From NCBI GenBank assembly GCA_947258975.1, contig CAMYKK010000055.1, positions 1-36,945 on the forward strand: 36,945 bases of DNA, given 5' to 3'. Numbering within the stretch: the stretch's first letter is position 1; every line of letters starts with the position of its first letter. The notes under the pieces were generated by a model. The model was not told the DNA's origin. It saw only the letters and a list, made by a program, of their open reading frames with translations, and ran no database searches. The position numbers were made by a program, and so were the translations under genes. The DNA comes from an uncultured Gammaproteobacteria bacterium (GTDB taxonomy: Bacteria; Pseudomonadota; Gammaproteobacteria; Arenicellales; JAANXG01). This document shows, one piece after another, positions 6,336-29,328 of the stretch.

Positions 6336-7019
6336 ATGGATGCCTTTATTCTTGCGGCTGGACGCGGCGAGCGGCTGCGACCACTCACCGACACCCTGCC
6401 CAAGCCGCTCATCCCGGTTGGCGGCTCGACATTGATTGAGATCCGCATACGCAGCCTCGCCGCAGTCGGGATCACGCATATCGTCGTCAATCATGCCCAT
6501 CTGGGACAACAAATCCTGCAACGTCTGGGCGACGGCAGCCGCTACGGAGTACGCATCTCGTACTCGGACGAGTCCCGCGGCGCACTGGGCACGGGAGGCG
6601 GCATCATCAAGGCACTGCCGCTGCTGCAAAGCGACCCGTTCCTGGTCGTCAACAGCGATATCTGGACCGATTATTCGTTTACCAACTTGCCGAGCGCGCC
6701 GTCCAGACTCGCACATCTGGTCCTAGTAGGCAATCCAGCCCATAACCCCACAGGAGATTTTTGTTTATGCGGCGATCGCGTGGACAAACTCGATGGTTGC
6801 ATGGGCCGGCGCGCGACCTTCACTGGTATCGGTGTCTACCGGCGGGCGCTATTCGCGGATCGCGCGCCAGCAGTCCTTCCGCTGGCGCCTTTGCTGGTCT
6901 CCGCATGCGATCGTAAACTGGTCAGTGGTGAATACCATACAGGCGTGTGGTTAGACATCGGCACACCCGAGAGGCTGCAGACGCTCAATAATTTGTTGGC
7001 TGAGCAAGAATCGGATTGA
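6336..7019 (+). CDS. murU: MurNAc alpha-1-phosphate uridylyltransferase MurU
   Basis: A 227-residue nucleotidyltransferase of the NTP_transferase family. The N-terminal signature MDAFILAAGRGERLRPLT followed by LPKPLIPVGG is the nucleotide-binding and catalytic loop. SRGALGTGGGI and the metal-binding VNSDIWTD follow. MurU makes UDP-MurNAc from UTP and the MurNAc-1-phosphate produced by AmgK. The ATG at 6336 lies 2 bases after the amgK stop, so the two are translationally linked. By fold alone it could be another sugar-1-phosphate nucleotidyltransferase; the AmgK partner and the short length, without a C-terminal hexapeptide domain, point to MurU. Confidence 0.87.
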   Translation: MDAFILAAGRGERLRPLTDTLPKPLIPVGGSTLIEIRIRSLAAVGITHIVVNHAHLGQQILQRLGDGSRYGVRISYSDESRGALGTGGGIIKALPLLQSDPFLVVNSDIWTDYSFTNLPSAPSRLAHLVLVGNPAHNPTGDFCLCGDRVDKLDGCMGRRATFTGIGVYRRALFADRAPAVLPLAPLLVSACDRKLVSGEYHTGVWLDIGTPERLQTLNNLLAEQESD

Positions 7020-7055
7020 TTCGGCCACTGGATTTAGACGACACTGGATCCTGAC

Positions 7056-7946
7056 ATGACCGGCGCCAACACAATCGCCCGATCGGCTCGCGACTACGAT
7101 CGTATCGAATCCGCGATTCGCTACATAGACACCCACCAGTGCACGCAGCCTACGTTGCCACAAATCGCCGCTCACCTCGGTGTGAGCGAAAGCCATTTTC
7201 AGCGGCTTTTCAGCCGCTGGGCGGGCATTAGTCCCAAGCGGTTTCTCCAGTTTTTAACCCTCGAACATACCAAGCGGTTGCTGCGCAACGCCGCCAGCAC
7301 CCTGGACACGGCCCATGCCGCCGGCTTGTCCAGCACCAGCCGGCTGCATGAGTTATATATCGAGTGCGAAGCCATCACGCCCGGTGAATACAAGGACTAC
7401 GGCGACGGATTGGATATCCGCTTCGATTTTCATCAAAGCCCGTTCGGAGAATGCCTCGTTGCAACGACGCCACGGGGACTGTGTGCGCTGCTGTTTGTGG
7501 GCGATACCGGTCGCAGTGGTGCCGTCGCGGCACTTGAGAGAAACTGGCGCAGCGCGCGACTCACGCAGGACTCGACGGATACCGCCCATACCGTGCAACA
7601 AGTTTTCGCACCCCGCGCCGACCCCCAGCAACCGCTGTACATGCTCGTCAAAGGCACCAATTTTCAGATTAAAGTCTGGGAGGCGCTGTTGCGGGTGCCC
7701 CGCGGCCGCCTCGTATCTTACCAGGACCTGTCGCGTCACTTGGGAGCGCCGAGCGCCGTCCGCGCGGTCGCTAATGCAGTCGCCCGCAACCCCATCCACT
7801 TTCTTATCCCTTGCCACCGCGTGATCCGCAACATGGGCGAGTTTGGGGGGTACCAGGGTGGCACGGCGAAGAAAAAGGCCATCCACGCATGGGAGGCGGC
7901 GAAAATACGGTCTTCGCGGCTTAAAGCCGCTCCCACAGCCACTTGA
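7056..7946 (+). CDS. Ada-like AraC/methylated-DNA-cysteine methyltransferase fusion
   Basis: A 296-residue protein with an AraC-type HTH region at about 14-110 (including TLPQIAAHLGVSESHFQRLF) joined to an O6-alkylguanine-DNA alkyltransferase domain at about 130-285. The alkyl acceptor is Cys253 in IPCHRVI, and FQIKVWEALLRVPRG plus VRAVANAVARNP form the DNA-binding helix and finger. It repairs O6-methylguanine by irreversible self-alkylation. The N-terminal zinc domain of E. coli Ada, with its Cys38 methyl sensor, is absent, so it cannot switch on by phosphotriester transfer as Ada does. The last dozen residues (about SSRLKAAPTAT) are encoded by a REP-like repeat and are probably a late addition. 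It starts 36 bases after murU and may share its transcript. Confidence 0.9.
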   Translation: MTGANTIARSARDYDRIESAIRYIDTHQCTQPTLPQIAAHLGVSESHFQRLFSRWAGISPKRFLQFLTLEHTKRLLRNAASTLDTAHAAGLSSTSRLHELYIECEAITPGEYKDYGDGLDIRFDFHQSPFGECLVATTPRGLCALLFVGDTGRSGAVAALERNWRSARLTQDSTDTAHTVQQVFAPRADPQQPLYMLVKGTNFQIKVWEALLRVPRGRLVSYQDLSRHLGAPSAVRAVANAVARNPIHFLIPCHRVIRNMGEFGGYQGGTAKKKAIHAWEAAKIRSSRLKAAPTAT

Positions 7947-9072: not shown

Positions 9073-9955
9073 TCTGTTTCGCATCGGTTCGGCACTGCGC
9101 TTTGTACTGTTGAAACAAATCGTACATGCGTTGGAATACAGGGCCCGGGCGGCCTTGTGCGACAGCATGATCGTTGATGCGGCTAACTGGCATGATCTCG
9201 TTCGTCGAACTCGTTATCCACACTTCTTCGGCATCGATCATTTGTTGCTCGGTAAAAGCCCGTTCTTCATATGCGACTCCATGGCGATCCATGAGTTCGA
9301 CCACAAGATCACGGGTGATTCCCGGCAGCAGGTTTGGTCCGCGGGGGGCGGTGAGGACGATGTCACCAATCACCGCGAACACATTGGTTGCCGCTCCCTC
9401 GGTCACCACTCCGTCACGGACCAAGACCGCTTCAGCGGCCCCTTGCTCCTTGGCCTGCTGGCGCAACCAGACATTAGCAATCAATGAAGTAGTCTTAATG
9501 TCGCATCGGTGCCAGCGGAAATCCGCAATCGTCACTACCGTCACCCCCTTGGCGACGGATCTGTTGGCCACCGGCGCCAATTTTTGCACGTAGGCAAACA
9601 CCGTGGGTGCTATGCTCTCCGGAAACAAGTGATTGCGAGGCGCAACGCCCCGGGTGACCTGTATGTAAAGGTAATGGGCCTTGTCCGATACCCGCGACAA
9701 CAGTCCGGTTAAGACCTGCTCCCACTCCTGCCGCGTGCAGGGCCGCCGGATGCCGACGGTATCAAGATTATTGTTTAACCGCGCCAGGTGCGCGTCCCAC
9801 CGAAACGCTTGCCCGCCATAAATCGGGACCACTTCGTAAATACCGTCACCAAAGATCAAACCGCGATCAAAAGCCGAGATATGAGCGTCCGCGGGCGCCA
9901 CGAACTCACCATTGATGTAAGCGCTTACCACATCATCAAACATGTCATTCATCAA
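9062..9955 (-). CDS. dat: D-alanine aminotransferase (class IV, PLP)
   Basis: A 297-residue fold-type IV aminotransferase, probably making D-amino acids by exchanging amino groups between D-alanine or D-glutamate and 2-oxo acids. The N-terminus is typical (AYINGEFVAPADAHISAFDRG, then FGDGIYEVV). The PLP lysine is Lys154 in RCDIKTTSLIAN, followed by GAAEAVLVRDG.VTEGAATNVFAV, which binds the cofactor phosphate. Branched-chain aminotransferase and aminodeoxychorismate lyase share the fold; the length, the motifs and the place directly behind dacA favour D-amino-acid transaminase. It starts 3 bases after dacA, with alternative ATGs at 9952 and 9943. Confidence 0.87.
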   Translation of the reverse strand: MMNDMFDDVVSAYINGEFVAPADAHISAFDRGLIFGDGIYEVVPIYGGQAFRWDAHLARLNNNLDTVGIRRPCTRQEWEQVLTGLLSRVSDKAHYLYIQVTRGVAPRNHLFPESIAPTVFAYVQKLAPVANRSVAKGVTVVTIADFRWHRCDIKTTSLIANVWLRQQAKEQGAAEAVLVRDGVVTEGAATNVFAVIGDIVLTAPRGPNLLPGITRDLVVELMDRHGVAYEERAFTEQQMIDAEEVWITSSTNEIMPVSRINDHAVAQGRPGPVFQRMYDLFQQYKAQCRTDAKQNVG

Positions 9956-9958
9956 TTT

Positions 9959-11146
9959 TCACTCAAACCAAAGTAATACGGCGTCCATTGCTCTTTTCCA
10001 CCAAGCACCTTGCGGTACCTCGGACAGTGCAACCAATGGCACTTCCATGAGAGGATTGCTGTTGTATTCGATTCTGGCGAGGCCCAAGGCGTGGCCGGCA
10101 GTAACCGGCGCCACAGCGAATGGCGGGACTTCGAAATGCGCCTTGAGCGAGTCCGTCTGTCCTCGGGGAACAACAACATACACGGCATCAGCTGAACCCA
10201 GCGGAAGCCGGTCACGCTCCCCCTTGAACACTTTGATTTGTGCGGTCGGACTTCCTTCGCCGAACACACGTTTGGATTCATAGCTGGAAAATCCATGTTT
10301 CAACAACGCGTGAACCTCTTTGGCCCGTTGTTTAGCGCTAGCGGTTCCGGTGACCGTGGCGATAAGGCGCATATCATCGCGTTTGGCCGATCCGACCAGA
10401 CAGTATCCGGCGGTACTGGTATGCCCCGTCTTGACCCCATCAACCGAAGCATCCCGCCACAATAAAAGATTTCGATTGTTCTGTTTGATTTTGTTGTAGG
10501 TGAAATCCTTGGTGGAATACCAATCGTAAAACTCCGGAAACTCACGGATGATCGCGGCCGCAATCAGCGATACATCCCGTGCCGAGCTATAATGGTCCGA
10601 GTCAGGAAGGCCCGCCGCGTTGCTAAAATTCGTGTTTCCGAGATTCAACGCATGCGCGTGTTGATTCATGAGCGCGGCAAAACCCTCCTCGGAGCCGGCA
10701 ACATGCTCCGCCAGAGCAACCGCCGCATCGTTACCGGACTGGACAATCAATCCCATCAACAGGTCCTCCACCGAGACCTTGCTGTTGACTTTGACGAACA
10801 TGCGGGATCCCTCGGTGCGCCAAGCCTTCTCGCTGATCTGCGCCAGATCGCCTAACTGCAGGGTGCCTTTGCGAATTTCATGGAATACCACATACGCGGT
10901 CATCAGCTTACTGAGGCTGGCCGGCTCAATCCTTTTATCGGAATTCTTCTCCGCCAATATCCAGCCGGTATTAAAATCCATCAACAACCAAGTCTCAGCG
11001 GTCAATTTGGGGATCGGATTGTTCGATTTAACCAGATCCGGCACCAGTACCGCGAACACCGGGAACGGCAACAACGCCAACCACAGAACAATGACCGCAA
11101 TCAACGGCCTGACGGGAAGCGGTCTGAGATTGCGTCTTCTTGTCAT
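9959..11146 (-). CDS. dacA: D-alanyl-D-alanine carboxypeptidase, PBP5/6 type (DacA)
   Basis: A 395-residue low-molecular-mass penicillin-binding protein that trims the terminal D-Ala from peptidoglycan pentapeptides. A signal peptide covers residues 1-32. The active-site motifs are all visible: Ser77-Leu-Ser-Lys80 (SxxK), Ser137-Gly-Asn139 (SxN) and Lys239-Thr-Gly241 (KTG). The C-terminal PBP5-like domain covers about 290-370 and the end is an amphipathic anchor (WWKRAMDAVLLWFE). Its ATG overlaps the rlpA stop by 4 bases (ATGA), and dat follows almost at once. Confidence 0.95.
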   Translation of the reverse strand: MTRRRNLRPLPVRPLIAVIVLWLALLPFPVFAVLVPDLVKSNNPIPKLTAETWLLMDFNTGWILAEKNSDKRIEPASLSKLMTAYVVFHEIRKGTLQLGDLAQISEKAWRTEGSRMFVKVNSKVSVEDLLMGLIVQSGNDAAVALAEHVAGSEEGFAALMNQHAHALNLGNTNFSNAAGLPDSDHYSSARDVSLIAAAIIREFPEFYDWYSTKDFTYNKIKQNNRNLLLWRDASVDGVKTGHTSTAGYCLVGSAKRDDMRLIATVTGTASAKQRAKEVHALLKHGFSSYESKRVFGEGSPTAQIKVFKGERDRLPLGSADAVYVVVPRGQTDSLKAHFEVPPFAVAPVTAGHALGLARIEYNSNPLMEVPLVALSEVPQGAWWKRAMDAVLLWFE

Positions 11147-22332: not shown

Positions 22333-22409
22333 GCGCCTGTAGCTCAGTTGGATAGAGTACCTGGCTTCGAACCAGGTGGTCGGGGGTTCGAGTCCCTCCG
22401 GGCGCGCCA
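22333..22409 (+). tRNA. tRNA-Arg, anticodon TCG
   Basis: A complete 77-base tRNA with encoded CCA. Acceptor stem GCGCCTG pairs with CGGGCGC (one G-U), discriminator G, CCA at 22407-22409. Anticodon stem CCTGG/CCAGG (22360-22364 and 22372-22376) with loop CTTCGAA, so the anticodon is TCG (22367-22369), reading CGA. The T arm contains GGTTCGAGTCC. It stands at the border between housekeeping and accessory DNA, and its 3' half is the likely attachment site of the neighbouring integrase. Confidence 0.96.
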
Positions 22410-22413
22410 ATAA

Positions 22414-22444
22414 ATCAACAGGTTACGAATCATTCGCTGTTGAT
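22414..22444. other. Stem-loop right after tRNA-Arg
   Basis: ATCAACAG (22414-22421) and CTGTTGAT (22437-22444) form an exact 8-bp inverted repeat; inside it CGAA/TTCG can add a second short stem. It lies 4 bases past the tRNA CCA and overlaps the start of the island. It may be the tRNA terminator or an integrase-binding part of attL. Confidence 0.55.
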
Positions 22445-22446
22445 AC

Positions 22447-23592
22447 TCATCTTATTTCCGACATTTTTCCGACAATTTCCGACACTTTCCGCTTGACCAC
22501 CGTTAATGTCGGAGTTTGGGCGATCCCTCTGTCGACAATCCGATCTACCGCATCCAGCAACTCCTGTAGTTCCGCAGCCGAGTAGTGCGTCGTGATATCG
22601 CCGTTGGCGTGGCCCAGCAGAGCCTTGCGGGTTTCCAACGAAACCCCTGCACCCCTGAGTCGCCGTCCGAAGGTGTGCCGAAGATTATGCACGCCCTTCA
22701 GGATGCCTTTTTCGTCGGGCAGACCCGCAGCCTTCCAGGCCCTCTTCCACGCCGTGTTGTGAAGCCTGTTCACGGGCCGACCTCGGTACGTGAACACGAA
22801 CACTTTGTGCATTCCGCGCCGAGAATCAACGACTCTTCGCGCCACCGCATTTAATACCACAGCCCGTTCCGTGCTGGTTTTCGTGACCGATTCCGGCAAC
22901 ACAAACACCGACGTACCGAGATCCGTCACCTTCACTTCCCAGTCCCAGCGAAGCCGGCAGATTTCCTGCTCCCGACAACCGGTGTTGACAGCAAACAACG
23001 CCGCATCGGCCAGATGCCGGGGAAGACACCTTATTAATGTGTCCTGCTCTTCCCACGACAGCGGGTACGGTTTCGCCTGGCGCCCCCTCAATGACAACCG
23101 AGTGAGCTGCGCCGGCGCTTGCCCTAACCACGGCGTTCCATCCACGTTCCGCCAAACCCGTGCTGCTTTGTTCAACACTGCCGACACAACACCGATTGCG
23201 TTATTGACCGTCTTCGGTGCCATTTCGCGTGCGGTTTCATGATCCACGAACGCTTTAAGCGTGCCGTCATGAATCTGCTCGAGCGGCAGCTGTCCGATAA
23301 ACGGGGACACCTGGTCTAGATGCATCGCCACGATATCCGAAGACGGCTTTTGCGCAATCTCTTCGAGATAGCGCATTCCGGCTTCCTCGAAGCTGTAAAC
23401 CGCTGCCTCTTGCCGCCGGGCCTCCTGCCCTATTTCCGCCAACCGACGAATCAGGTACTGCTCTGCCTCAGCGCGGCTAGTCGTTTCCGTGCTTTCCCTG
23501 AGCCACCCTCCTTGGCAGTCATTACAACGTTTTTCAATGTGCCAGATCCCGCCTTTGAGGCGAAGCCCCGGCATTCGGTTACGTTTAGACAT
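22447..23592 (-). CDS. Tyrosine recombinase/phage-type integrase (int1)
   Basis: A 381-residue site-specific recombinase. Residues 21-30 carry two cysteines (CNDCQGG), which may be part of a small N-terminal DNA-binding fold. The SAM-like core-binding domain covers about 65-165 and the catalytic domain about 175-345. Catalytic residues: Arg207 (NTGCREQEICRL), His302 and Arg305 (HNLRHTFGRRL), His328 (LLGHANGDITTHY) and the nucleophile Tyr337. The gene ends 37 bases from tRNA-Arg, so it probably integrated the island into that tRNA. Its last 13 codons contain the phased repeats described separately. Its 5' end overlaps the excisionase-like gene by 142 bases in another frame, and an internal start (Met7, 23574) is possible. 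Confidence 0.9.
   Translation of the reverse strand: MSKRNRMPGLRLKGGIWHIEKRCNDCQGGWLRESTETTSRAEAEQYLIRRLAEIGQEARRQEAAVYSFEEAGMRYLEEIAQKPSSDIVAMHLDQVSPFIGQLPLEQIHDGTLKAFVDHETAREMAPKTVNNAIGVVSAVLNKAARVWRNVDGTPWLGQAPAQLTRLSLRGRQAKPYPLSWEEQDTLIRCLPRHLADAALFAVNTGCREQEICRLRWDWEVKVTDLGTSVFVLPESVTKTSTERAVVLNAVARRVVDSRRGMHKVFVFTYRGRPVNRLHNTAWKRAWKAAGLPDEKGILKGVHNLRHTFGRRLRGAGVSLETRKALLGHANGDITTHYSAAELQELLDAVDRIVDRGIAQTPTLTVVKRKVSEIVGKMSEIR
22455..22492. repeat. Helically phased direct repeats near attL
   Basis: TTTCCGACA occurs exactly at 22455, 22466 and 22476, and a partial copy (TTTCCGC) at 22486. Spacing is 11, 10 and 10 bases, about one helical turn, so a protein could bind all copies on one face. 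The repeats lie within the 3' end of int1 and explain its repetitive C-terminus (SEIVGKMSEIR). Arm-type sites for the integrase or its accessory factor are a reasonable guess. Confidence 0.6.
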
Positions 23593-23834
23593 ATGTCGTC
23601 CTCCAGTTTTTTAGCTTTCGGACGACGCCCGTTGCGGGTCTTATACTGATCCACCCAAGCGTCCAGATCAAGTCTGTCGAAAGCTACTCCCTGCAACCCA
23701 ATTGGGATCTCGACGAGATCCGGCCGCACATCTACGTTGAACCGGTTTCTATCCATACCGAGATACTGGGGTGCATCTCGAAGCCGGACCAGTCTCGGAA
23801 GAGTGTGTACCGCAAGCGGTTCGTCACGAGCCAT
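23451..23834 (-). CDS. Excisionase-like HTH protein of the integration module
   Basis: A 127-residue protein whose N-terminal part resembles AlpA/excisionase winged-HTH proteins: PRLVRLRDAPQYLGMDRNRF (a helix-turn-helix), then VEIPIGLQGVAFDRLDLDAWVDQYK. The basic C-terminal tail (KARKRLAALRQ) runs over the start of int1. Proteins of this layout are often found beside phage-type integrases in proteobacteria, with the same overlap. It begins 9 bases after int2 ends, so int2, this gene and int1 probably form one transcript. It is a candidate directionality factor or a regulator of the integrases; that role is inferred from family and position. Confidence 0.7.
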   Translation of the reverse strand: MARDEPLAVHTLPRLVRLRDAPQYLGMDRNRFNVDVRPDLVEIPIGLQGVAFDRLDLDAWVDQYKTRNGRRPKAKKLEDDICLNVTECRGFASKAGSGTLKNVVMTAKEGGSGKARKRLAALRQSST

Positions 23835-23843
23835 GTTTGATCT

Positions 23844-24725
23844 CTATCGACCCAAATAAGTACTAGTAATATCGATGCGGGAATGCCCCAGCTCTGCAGC
23901 AATTTGCAGCCGCGCTTCCCGATCTTTCTCCCTCAACGCACCTTCTAGTTGTATCGTCGGTGTGCCGCCAAGGATCTGCGCTTTGCGTCCGGTGAGCTCC
24001 TCATAACGCCGTTGTGCGTAGGCGTGGCGAAGGCCGTGGGTCTTCGAGAGCCCCGCACGCCGGGTCTGGTACTCCCAAGTCATAACGTGCTCTCGATAGC
24101 TTTTCCGTGCTGGTATGAGTGATCCGTTCTTAGCAAACGCCTTGGCAGCGTTTAGGACTTCGCGCTGCTGCTGGGTTCGAATCGGGATCTCCCGCGGCCG
24201 CCCCCCTTTCGTCCAACTGCTTTTTAAGACAAGTTTGTCGCCACGATCCGCCCAGGTCGGTTCAACCTTCATGGCTTCTTCTCGCCGCAGGCCAAAGGCG
24301 GCTTGCATCCGAAAACTGTGATAGACGTGGTTGTCCGTGACGCGCTTTAGAACGTCCTCGGTGAGGGGCACAGCCCTGGACTGCTCCGAGAGGTAAGTCC
24401 GCGCCTCGATTCCTAGGGAGCGGTTGGTGTCGGGCAGCAGATTCGATTTACCCACTTTCTCCAATACCCAACGCACATTCGCCAACCGGTTCTTGACCGT
24501 GGCCTCGCTGACGGGCTGGCTGTATGGATTCCCGGTTTTCCACACGTGTAAGACCTTCTGAATATGCTTTTGCCGGACATTGCGAAGCCGCAAGCCCCGG
24601 AATCCCAATGTATGGAGGTCTTTGGCAAACTGCATCACGATCTTTCTCCGGTCGTATTGGGTCACGTGCGATCCATCCCGATTTCTCTTCAATAACTGCG
24701 TCAAATCCCACTGCAAGGGCGTCAT
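23844..24725 (-). CDS. Second tyrosine recombinase (int2), integrase_1-type
   Basis: A 293-residue recombinase unlike int1, resembling the phage_int_SAM_2 plus Integrase_1 group. N-terminal core-binding part about 1-110, catalytic part about 120-293. Catalytic residues: Arg147 (AAFGLRREEAMKV), His230 and Arg233 (THGLRHAYAQRR), His281 (ELGHSRIDITSTYLG) and Tyr290, three residues from the end. I chose the ATG at 24725, with GGGAG about 10 bases upstream, over the TTG at 24743. Two different, apparently intact integrases on one strand with a small HTH gene between them suggest either a nested insertion or a recombinase pair working together. Confidence 0.87.
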   Translation of the reverse strand: MTPLQWDLTQLLKRNRDGSHVTQYDRRKIVMQFAKDLHTLGFRGLRLRNVRQKHIQKVLHVWKTGNPYSQPVSEATVKNRLANVRWVLEKVGKSNLLPDTNRSLGIEARTYLSEQSRAVPLTEDVLKRVTDNHVYHSFRMQAAFGLRREEAMKVEPTWADRGDKLVLKSSWTKGGRPREIPIRTQQQREVLNAAKAFAKNGSLIPARKSYREHVMTWEYQTRRAGLSKTHGLRHAYAQRRYEELTGRKAQILGGTPTIQLEGALREKDREARLQIAAELGHSRIDITSTYLGR

Positions 24726-25285
24726 CTTCAATGCTCCCGCCAAGTTAGTGACTTCATGCCGCCGGTTTAGGCGGCGCTTCTGGGCGCTTTCGTCGCGCCA
24801 ACACTGCGAATCTCGCTTCTACGTACGTGCGTTCGGTTAGTGTTGGTCCGCGACATGCCCCTGCCCGGCGGCAGGTCACAGTCATTGAAGGTTGAAATAA
24901 AACTTACCTTCAAACACGGCGGAATTTAACGTCGGTCACGTAGTCCCCGACGTGCCTGATGAGGCTGCAGACCACCCCATAAGTGATCTACACCGCAGGC
25001 TTTCGTTAGCCACTTTCATGAGACTCATCACCTCCTTATCTATAGAGAAGCAATGAATCCAGGGAACCCACCACCTCCAGGGTGGCGGGTCACCCCAGAT
25101 TCGGGTTTTGGAAATGCGAAGCCGGTCGGTCTTAAATCACAGACCGTCACGGTCTTCGCGGTTGACTCGACGCCGCACCAAATTGCCCTGTCCCCGCCGC
25201 GAATATCGAGACTAGGACAGTGACCGCCACAAGGGCCGGTCTCGGCAACGTCAGAGTTGGTGTCGAGCTGCCGCGCAAATGCGGC

Positions 25286-25316: not shown

Positions 25317-25701
25317 CTTAGCGGAAAGAATAAGGCCGATAAGTACACGTCCTATCGACTTAGTGGAAGTAATCCCGCTAGGCTTTACGCCCGTTTCCCC
25401 TCGCAGAAATCATTGGTTCAGTAACTGCCCACATCATGCGGCTCAGTCACCATAGCCAATTTTACGCGTCCTGCTCAATTGAACAATAGCTATACGGTTC
25501 ATCCATTTTTGACGATGAAGCATCATAAAAGCCTCCGTCACTCGCCCGTCACTCGAAATATTTCGTTTGCTTTCCCGCAAACCCGCGCCGGACTTAAGTT
25601 TCTTCGGGTACCGGCGCGCGTCACTACTGACCGGCGTCCGCAGTGACGCGCTTAATACGTTTCGATGCGACCGCTCGATCGACGCTCGAGGACTAGAAGC
25701 A

Positions 25702-25920: not shown

Positions 25921-27036
25921 CTACGCCCGTATCGCTTCAATCAGTGGTCGGGCACCCAGGATATTGATCACACGTTTGAGGTTGTATGCGAGCACGTGCA
26001 AACTCATCTCCGTGTTGACGTGTTTCAGAGTCTTCATTTGAAAGTGTGTCGATCCCATCCACGACTTCAACGTACCAAACGGATGCTCCGACGTTTGCCG
26101 GCGTACACGCATTCGCTCCGGCTCCTTATCCAGTCGGGCTTCAAGGTTTTCCAGAACAGATTCGTGCTCCCAGCGAGTCACACGTCTGTATGGGCTCGGA
26201 GTACATTGTGACTTGATCTTGCAACGGGGACACGCTGACGACCAGTACTTGTTCATCGTCTGTCCCTTCTCCTGGGTCCGAAATCGCCAAATCAATCGCT
26301 CACCACCGGGACATTCGTACTCATCATCTTCGGGAATGTAACGGAAATCCCGCTTACCAAAGCGGCCTTCAGCCTGACTACCCGAAGTCTGTGGCTTCGG
26401 CAGGTACGTCGTGATACCCGCATTCTCGCATTCCAGTATCTCTTCGCCTTTGAAGTAACCGCGATCGGCTACCACCTCCAGTTCCTCCGCGCCCACCGCC
26501 TCCTTGGCCTGCTGCGCCATATTGAATAACTGCGCACGATCATGGCCTACATTCGTTACTTCATGCGCAACAACAAGGTGATTCTTGGTATCTACCGCCG
26601 TCTGCACGTTATACCCCACCATCCCCGTGCCGCGGCCACTGGTCGCCATCGAGCGGGCATCCGGATCCGTCAGCGATATCTGTTGGTCCGGCGCCTCCAG
26701 CAGCCGGACTTCAAGCTTTTTTAACCGCGACATCTCCTTCTTCAACGCCTTGATCTTGTCTTCCAGGCGTTGCACCTTCGTCTGTGCAACCTCCGATTCC
26801 TGACGATCCGCACTCGCCATTTGGCCCAAATACCGTTCGATGCTCTCATCAATCTGCTGCAGCCGGCGCCGCATCTTCGCCTTCGTGAAGTTGCGGTCCC
26901 GGTTGTTCACCGCTTTGAACTTACTGCCGTCAATCGCAACAAACGCATCGGCAAACAAATTGAGCTTCCGACACAACATGTCCCTGGCGAATTCGTAATT
27001 CTGCCCTAAAACCAGCGGCTTGAGCAGTCTTGTCAT
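25921..27036 (-). pseudogene. IS1182-family transposase, 5'-truncated
   Basis: This frame encodes 371 residues of a DDE transposase: Asp36 in AFVAIDGSKFKAVNNRDRNF, Asp191 in VVADRGYFKG and Glu317 in RRQTSEHPFGTLKSWMG, with a coiled segment (about 85-112) and a CPRCKIKSQC cluster. Full IS1182 proteins are roughly 100 residues longer at the N-terminus; here homology starts just before the first aspartate, and the missing part would lie where the next, divergently read transposase begins. It was probably cut by that insertion. Terminal repeats were not found, and activity is unlikely. Confidence 0.8.
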
Positions 27037-28402: not shown

Positions 28403-29297
<895 letters not shown>

Positions 29298-29328
29298 TAT
29301 CGCGCCAGGTTATCTAACGATCGCTGAC

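Follow-up and report, generated by a model that had tools for sequence, protein, structure and literature searches.

What is the function of a second tyrosine-recombinase-like gene at an island border that already carries an integrase gene? This question is raised by a 36,945-nucleotide stretch of DNA of an uncultured gammaproteobacterium of the Arenicellales (GenBank assembly GCA_947258975.1, contig CAMYKK010000055.1, positions 1 to 36,945 of the forward strand; hereafter, the window), in which a tRNA-Arg(TCG) gene is followed by the integrase gene int1, a small gene designated X and the recombinase-like gene int2. An earlier note on this DNA had considered int1 and int2 as a cooperating pair or a nested insertion. 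According to our analysis, an integrative mobilizable element inserted at tRNA-Arg(TCG) probably has one of its ends here; it is built of two separable modules, and int2 would encode its relaxase. We regard int2 as a probable relaxase and the unit as mobilizable because of module swapping, the context of int2 on plasmids, the absence of known relaxases from the scanned elements and an order of elements resembling that of SGI1.

Int2 and its partners

Nine int2 matches beyond that of the window were found in the assembly, including a 64-residue remnant on contig C69 and a gene with an internal TGA on C107. Int2 was accompanied by X and int1A, with a 3' fragment of tRNA-Arg(tcg), on C153; by X fused in frame to int1A on C107; by an XB-type gene and int1B on C152, C41, and C38 (at tRNA-Ala, tRNA-Met, and tRNA-Phe, respectively); and by int1B on C121. 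The remnant on C69 adjoined XB and int1B at tRNA-Val, the neighbor on C70 was a large serine integrase (PF00239, PF07508) at tRNA-Leu, and int2 of C126 had no integrase beside it. Int2 proteins of C153, C152, and C70 were 80%, 78%, and 76% identical to that of the window, respectively, with differing partners.

A scan of a genome collection with the int2 alignment revealed at least 454 relatives, of which the 80 best loci were retained; the counts thus concern the closer relatives. Partners were classified for 89 int2 genes over 91 sources (the window, L032–L041, and L049–L128). An integrase was encoded within 2.6 kb of int2 in 38 cases (21 int1A, 10 int1B, 4 other tyrosine integrases, 2 serine integrases, and 1 of P4 type), 41 int2 genes had no integrase within this distance, and 10 were too close to a contig end. 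A tRNA gene was present within the next 3.2 kb for 29 of the 38 int2 genes with an integrase vs. only one of the 41 without. Along a tree built from 36 Int2 proteins, 15 changes of partner type were counted, compared with a mean of 14.6 in shuffles (157 of 200 were as low), while int1A alone was slightly clustered (9 changes vs. 11.9; 34 of 500 shuffles). Int2 is an independent module, separable from int1, and the integration module is often exchanged, since partner types vary both between close int2 copies and across the int2 tree.

The earlier note had set the occurrence of int2 without the other two genes at unrelated loci against its own proposal; int2 was found in this way on plasmids, beside other integrase types and, in the 41 cases above, with no integrase nearby. 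The int2–X–int1 triplet, which the note had suggested searching for, was found in the same order in many elements, so a nested insertion is unlikely. The int2 profile matched 21 of 60 sampled kin genomes (own genome included), some matches being mere fragments.

Plasmids and sister elements

Among 72,556 plasmid records, 210 contained int2 matches; 131 of these were typed as non-mobilizable, 54 as conjugative, and 25 as mobilizable. Many matches on larger plasmids were distant; 18 records, mostly with better matches, were fetched, and all other plasmid counts refer to these. Sixteen of the 18 were typed as non-mobilizable by MOB-suite. A type IV coupling-protein gene was located 3' of int2 on the same strand in six plasmids (L177, L179, L182, L187, L190, and L191), separated from int2 by one small gene in five of them; the PF02534 coupling protein was confirmed for plasmid L179 and for the chromosomal locus L071. 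The small genes 3' of int2 belonged to more than one family. By record annotation, no int1 was present beside plasmid int2; int1 itself was not searched for there.

An integrase and duplicated attachment sites, characteristic of integrative mobilizable elements, were found at five sister loci, although one of them (L058) contained int2 without int1; another (L034) had int1 without int2. The second tRNA 3' end was located 7.4 kb away in L034, 9.8 kb in L037, 8.1 kb in L054, 6.3 kb in L058, and 6.8 kb in L102. We failed to find known relaxase families in the scanned large open reading frames (ORFs) of these five loci; in L034 they included RT_VI, a reverse transcriptase of defence type, while those of L037 and L102 encoded a nucleotidyltransferase-like and a Fic protein, respectively. 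Further defence-type proteins, namely SIR2 of the short-Argonaute type (L088), pPIWI_RE (L078), and a UvrD-type helicase (L079), were encoded beside int2 genes without a near integrase. The int2 locus L093 (Pseudomonas) contained radC RNA motifs at 2635, 9005, and 10405.

Inverted repeat upstream of int2

Sister elements had 780–1085 bases 5' of int2 in common, starting at an inverted repeat, and the conserved unit reached positions 25616–25651 in the window. Of 80 distinct loci for which 1000 or more upstream bases were available, 65 had the pattern GTCACT...AGTGAC upstream of int2 (0.35 expected from shuffles), while it was absent from the other 15; with a relaxed pattern, the repeat was detected on 10 of the 18 plasmids. 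A longer pattern occurred at 12 places in the own genome: seven at int2 or X–int1 modules or their remnants and five without int2 (C52, C78 twice, C163, and C176). Leader-like DNA followed the int2-less repeats of C52, C78:6257, and C163.

Inverted repeats of the type proposed below as an origin of transfer (oriT) were located without int2 in L170 (1992 and 6257), L171 (6077), L172 (1134), and C176:3021 (L173); those at L170 6257 and L171 6077 were no more than 0.6 kb from tRNA-Arg genes. An integron, i.e., a cassette array with attC-like sites beside an integrase, was considered and rejected: one repeat of this type was present in the window and 12 were scattered in the genome, with no cassette array.

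Leader element

In relatives, a covarying element of approximately 135 nt upstream of int2 ended in a AACACTNACC motif. Of 90 loci, 69 had a motif of this type 18–175 bases 5' of int2, as did 8 of 18 plasmids; 0.38 of 98 were expected. Alignment A4 comprised 28 of 37 sequences, omitting the near-copies L067, L098, L099, L121, and L125 as well as the divergent or awkward rows L070, L080, L111, and L153. The structure contained 29 pairs, 17 of which changed on both sides, and 92.6% of the cells were paired compared with 28–48% when the structure was slid along the alignment. None of 500 shuffles scored as high on four of five measures, while 97 of 500 did so for further pair types; the structure was picked from the same alignment, which biases this test in its favor. 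GU/UG pairs outnumbered AC/CA pairs (46 vs. 20 of 811 cells), favoring the int2-sense strand. The closing stem stood directly 5' of the conserved unpaired AACACTNACC, and the leader ended a few tens of bases 5' of the int2 start at most loci.

Leader model R1 produced 62 matches at E ≤ 1 in 100 sources; 28 of these were its own training rows, and some of the remainder were near-copies. No match was obtained in 39 sources, including the window. Fifty-nine matches were located within about 200 bases 5' of int2, whereas those in L081 and L078 and a second match in L074 were not. Rebuilt models, whose E-values are rough, reached alphaproteobacterial plasmids (R2: L185, 1.8e-5; L186, 6e-5), the Shewanella plasmid L189 (9.7e-5) and Achromobacter- or Burkholderia-type loci (1e-9 to 4e-11), the latter being relatives of four training rows. 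Model R3 reached the sister elements L037 (1.8e-6), L052, and L036, with near relatives of L037 and L052 in the training set. Of 109 genomes of the order, 17 contained PF12835; the 15 R3 matches all fell within this set, in 10 genomes, and 13 of them were directly 5' of int2 (exceptions: G005:C181 and G077:C259).

At E ≤ 10, four of the five leader matches in the own genome preceded int2, the fifth having E 5.4; the window copy was not among them. The window leader was joined to the family because of its DNA similarity to L036 (72% over 140 bases). No Rfam match was found at the leader in the window (E ≤ 1) or in L064, L070, L093, and L049 (E ≤ 0.5). Consensus folding yielded a clear structure for the proximal ~135 nt only; over the entire upstream stretch, folded in four groups, the result was unclear.

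Int2 protein and known systems

Int2 matched PF12834 (6.3e-14) and PF12835 (9.1e-14), and residues R153, K179, H236, R239, H287, and Y296 were invariant across 45 aligned sequences. The start common to relatives is ATG at 24725, while the open frame starts earlier, with TTG at 24743. The predicted model, based on 34 sequences (pLDDT 91, pTM 0.69), was that of a two-domain tyrosine recombinase. The best Foldseek match was VchIntI (2a3v, E 5.3e-7), followed by XerH; XerA, Tn1549 Int, and lambda Int were also found, with TM-scores of approximately 0.4–0.6. The int2 profile gave one doubtful match among PDB sequences, and two weak records were found in a search of phages. Assignment of either recombinase to GmtY of the Gamma-mobile-trio was rejected: int1 scored 21 bits against a cut-off of 340, and int2 had no NCBIfam match.

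Published systems were compared by their descriptions in the available parts of the cited papers. SGI1 is an integrated mobilizable element with an inverted-repeat oriT, a small RNA (sRNA) stretch and a tyrosine-recombinase-like gene, and without a classical relaxase of its own (PMC6414798, PMC9299015); the present elements, with their candidate oriT, leader, and relaxase gene, resemble it in these respects. In SGI1, oriT comes first, followed by an essential sRNA and by mpsA, an atypical relaxase gene; oriT is thus the element farther from mpsA, and the sRNA core the nearer one (PMC9299015). The order of candidate repeat, leader, and int2 in relatives agrees with it, the window's own leader being weak. 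MpsA resembles XerH by modelling (PMC6414798). Unlike the SGI1 module (MpsA, MpsB), int2 has its own core-binding domain, the small genes following it are of mixed families, and the target is a tRNA gene; MpsA was compared by description.

TcpM, MobK, and MpsA were the only tyrosine-recombinase-type relaxases named in 2021 (PMC9299015, PMC8152469), and all three lack a core-binding domain (PMC8152469). TcpM (pCW3) and MobK (pIGRK), which the proposed relaxase int2 resembles by description, have oriT upstream of the gene (PMC8152469, PMC9299015), and no RNA is mentioned for them in the parts available. Int2 shares the catalytic residues and the tyrosine of these relaxases but not the lack of the core-binding domain. 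Since this domain is present and the likeness is one of description, we leave int2 outside this group and suggest only that it probably works in a similar way.

A "phage integrase" gene beside mcr-4.3 on a Shewanella baltica plasmid also combines PF12834 and PF12835; its authors proposed a role for it in mcr-4.3 mobilization but, in contrast to our interpretation, read it as a phage integrase and not as a relaxase (PMC9769806). Strand-biased circularizing elements of the SE-6945 type (intA-CDS2-intB-CDS4) likewise carry two tyrosine recombinases with small genes, and their authors speculate that IntB is a relaxase; by description they differ in having 19-bp terminal inverted repeats and preferred targets other than tRNA genes (PMC9345347). 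PF12835 also figures in a 2024 survey of ocean elements, as one of the nucleases frequent in elements without a recognised relaxase (PMC11104534). Neither a PF12835 relaxase nor an RNA family at this place is named in the accessible parts of the open-access literature searched, which leaves most subscription journals and preprints outside.

Proposed mechanism and alternatives

In the proposed mechanism, the first module (int1 and X) would insert the element at the 3' end of the tRNA gene and later excise it. The second, comprising the inverted repeat, the structured leader near 24835–24990, and int2, would serve mobilization, the inverted repeat and int2 being candidates for the element's own oriT and relaxase. 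Int2, as a tyrosine-recombinase-type relaxase, would nick oriT upstream of its own gene and pass the nicked strand to the type IV secretion system of a helper. The leader RNA, placed like the sgm-sRNA of SGI1, may be a transfer cofactor or a control element of int2. The scheme builds on observed gene content, duplicated tRNA 3' ends, swapping of modules, conserved cis elements and, in relatives, a covarying leader; we infer the relaxase activity, the identity of oriT, the role of the RNA, and the function of X as a directionality factor.

Two narrower views of the leader are compatible with this mechanism. That it acts only in cis, controlling int2 mRNA with no role in transfer, is a minority possibility, to which the SGI1 precedent is the sole counterpoint (PMC9299015). 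The position of the leader just before the int2 start and the wobble pairs favoring the int2-sense strand agree with such control. Somewhat more doubtful is the view that the leader and AACACTNACC together form oriT, as hairpin and nic site, the distal repeat being otherwise employed. The closing stem followed directly by unpaired AACACTNACC resembles a nic region. In SGI1, however, oriT is the distal element and the sRNA core the proximal one (PMC9299015).

Several observations weigh against int2 as the relaxase of a mobilizable element. The 41 int2 genes without a near integrase may lie outside mobile elements. The closest folds, IntI and XerH, fit recombination equally well, and int2 has a core-binding domain (PF12834, predicted model). 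Int2 is not always the sole relaxase candidate, because the alphaproteobacterial plasmids L184, L185, and L186 carry MobA/MobL genes (with the coupling protein further off), L188 is an IncQ1 mobilizable plasmid with IncQ1 functions, and a TraI_2 relaxase/helicase gene (9276–10643) is close to int2 in L096 (Pseudomonas), where an island may adjoin a conjugative element or be contained in one. A coupling protein was not found within the fetched stretch of 9 of the 18 plasmids; another, shorter site-specific integrase was encoded elsewhere on L180, L181, and L189, and a recombinase-family gene on L178, L180, and L188. Under stricter filters, 7 of the 17 PF12835 genomes of the order had no R3 leader match, and the leaders of L035, L049, and L050 were missed. 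The window leader was weak (E 0.016 in a 1.5 kb search and 0.34 in a 0.55 Mb search), although still the top match of the region, and the window's own second attachment (att) copy was found only on other contigs.

Some of these points would suit a true site-specific recombinase, either a multimer resolvase, which small plasmids could use, or an integron-integrase-like enzyme inserting cargo at the inverted repeat, where the similarity of sister elements starts. We consider this unlikely. The catalytic set is complete and VchIntI and XerH are the best fold matches, but MpsA is also XerH-like by modelling (PMC6414798); there was no sign of a cassette array, this reading leaves the coupling-protein genes beside plasmid int2 unexplained, and an RNA-like leader would be unexpected for a resolvase. 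A heteromeric integrase of int1 and int2 acting on the tRNA gene, the cooperating pair of the earlier note, is highly improbable: the two genes are close neighbors on one strand in an order kept in many elements, but int2 also occurs with serine, P4-type, and other integrases or with none nearby, partner type is overall unclustered on its tree (int1A only slightly clustered), and plasmid int2 has no annotated int1 beside it.

The lack of a known relaxase is a frequent reason for classing plasmids and islands as non-mobilizable. If int2 is a relaxase, as we favor, mobility would have to be considered for many of the 131 plasmid records typed as non-mobilizable (of 210, distant matches included), and islands carrying defence genes next to int2 would have a means of transfer. 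We tentatively suggest that int2 could belong to a mobilization system, widespread in Alpha-, Beta-, and Gammaproteobacteria but so far unrecognised, by which small "non-mobilizable" plasmids and module-swapping defence islands are moved with the help of a PF12835 relaxase and a dedicated structured RNA; the odds of this broader proposal are slightly less than even. An RNA tied to the relaxase would allow the sgm-sRNA of SGI1 to be tested as a case of general RNA-assisted DNA transfer.

Organization of the border

The features of the border are listed in Table 1. The geometry given in the earlier note agreed with our coordinates: the gap between the tRNA (ARAGORN) and the int1 ORF is 37 bases, X overlaps int1 by 142 bases, and int2, unrelated to int1 in its Pfam families, lies 9 bases from X. 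Both recombinases contain the full catalytic set (R, K, HxxR, H, and Y), as had been claimed. That an island borders on the 3' end of the tRNA gene, as the note had proposed, is supported by 3'-end duplicates in the own genome and in sister elements; further copies of the tRNA-Arg 3' half, for which the note had suggested a search, were found elsewhere in the assembly, on C166 (49 nt, 100%) and C153 (56 nt, 98%).

Table 1. Features of the tRNA-Arg(TCG) border in the window.
Feature	Coordinates	Strand	Basis or remark
tRNA-Arg(TCG), integration target	22333..22409	+	ARAGORN; Rfam tRNA
Candidate att core: tRNA 3' half and a few bases past it	22361..22416	+	Copies on C153, C166
Three direct repeats TTTCCGACA (22455, 22466, 22476), within int1 3' end	22455..22484	+	Candidate arm-type sites, function inferred
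int1, tyrosine integrase PF00589, presumed to act on tRNA	22447..23592	-	ORF call, Pfam, catalytic residues
X (XA type), small gene, possible recombination directionality factor	23451..23834	-	Overlaps int1
int2, tyrosine-recombinase fold, PF12834+PF12835, probable relaxase	23844..24743	-	Pfam, alignment, predicted model
Candidate structured leader RNA, ends in CAACACTAACC (24835-24845), inner hairpin 24930-24952	24835..24990	-	Leader model, weak in window
Conserved stretch shared by sister elements; window lacks open frames of ≥100 codons	24744..25651	-	Sequence comparison
Inverted repeat GCGCGTCACT...AGTGACGCGC, candidate for all or part of oriT	25616..25651	-	Sister-element similarity begins here
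Insertion sequence (IS) transposase (DDE, PF13751/PF01609), outside conserved module	25921..27036	-	ORF call, Pfam

Int1 (PF00589, 8.7e-16) showed nothing notable beyond being a tyrosine integrase with a duplicated tRNA 3' end; in this it is similar to other tyrosine integrases at tRNA genes, unlike int2, which belongs to another family. The gene between the recombinases, described earlier as a helix-turn-helix (HTH) gene, does exist, but none of the models run showed an HTH in X. X had no Pfam family, and its sole match was PHROG 13517 of unknown function; the gene in its position in the sister element L037 (XB) matched HTH_17. A function of X as an excisionase or recombination directionality factor is plausible. 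In the sister element L036, X and int1 form one open frame by in-frame fusion (6470–7789). A recombinase in trio consists of three tyrosine recombinases in a row; the earlier comparison with such a trio lacking one member does not hold here, since the locus contains two recombinases and X lacks any match to this kind of enzyme.

The sequence TCAA..G.TTACG just past the tRNA CCA was common to the window (22415), L034 (8327), and L037 (8046 and 17873), at different tRNAs. The tRNA-Arg(acg) 3' halves were repeated 1.1 kb apart on C63:3149-4334 (L047) and 3.1 kb apart on C148:9061-12213 (L048), and another was present at C70:976 (L034). The repeats on C63 and C148, contigs without an int2 match in the search of the assembly, are possible tandem or decayed islands. 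Frames resembling pieces of a broken ATP synthase beta subunit, recognised by eye only, were located at 28403–29317 of the window.

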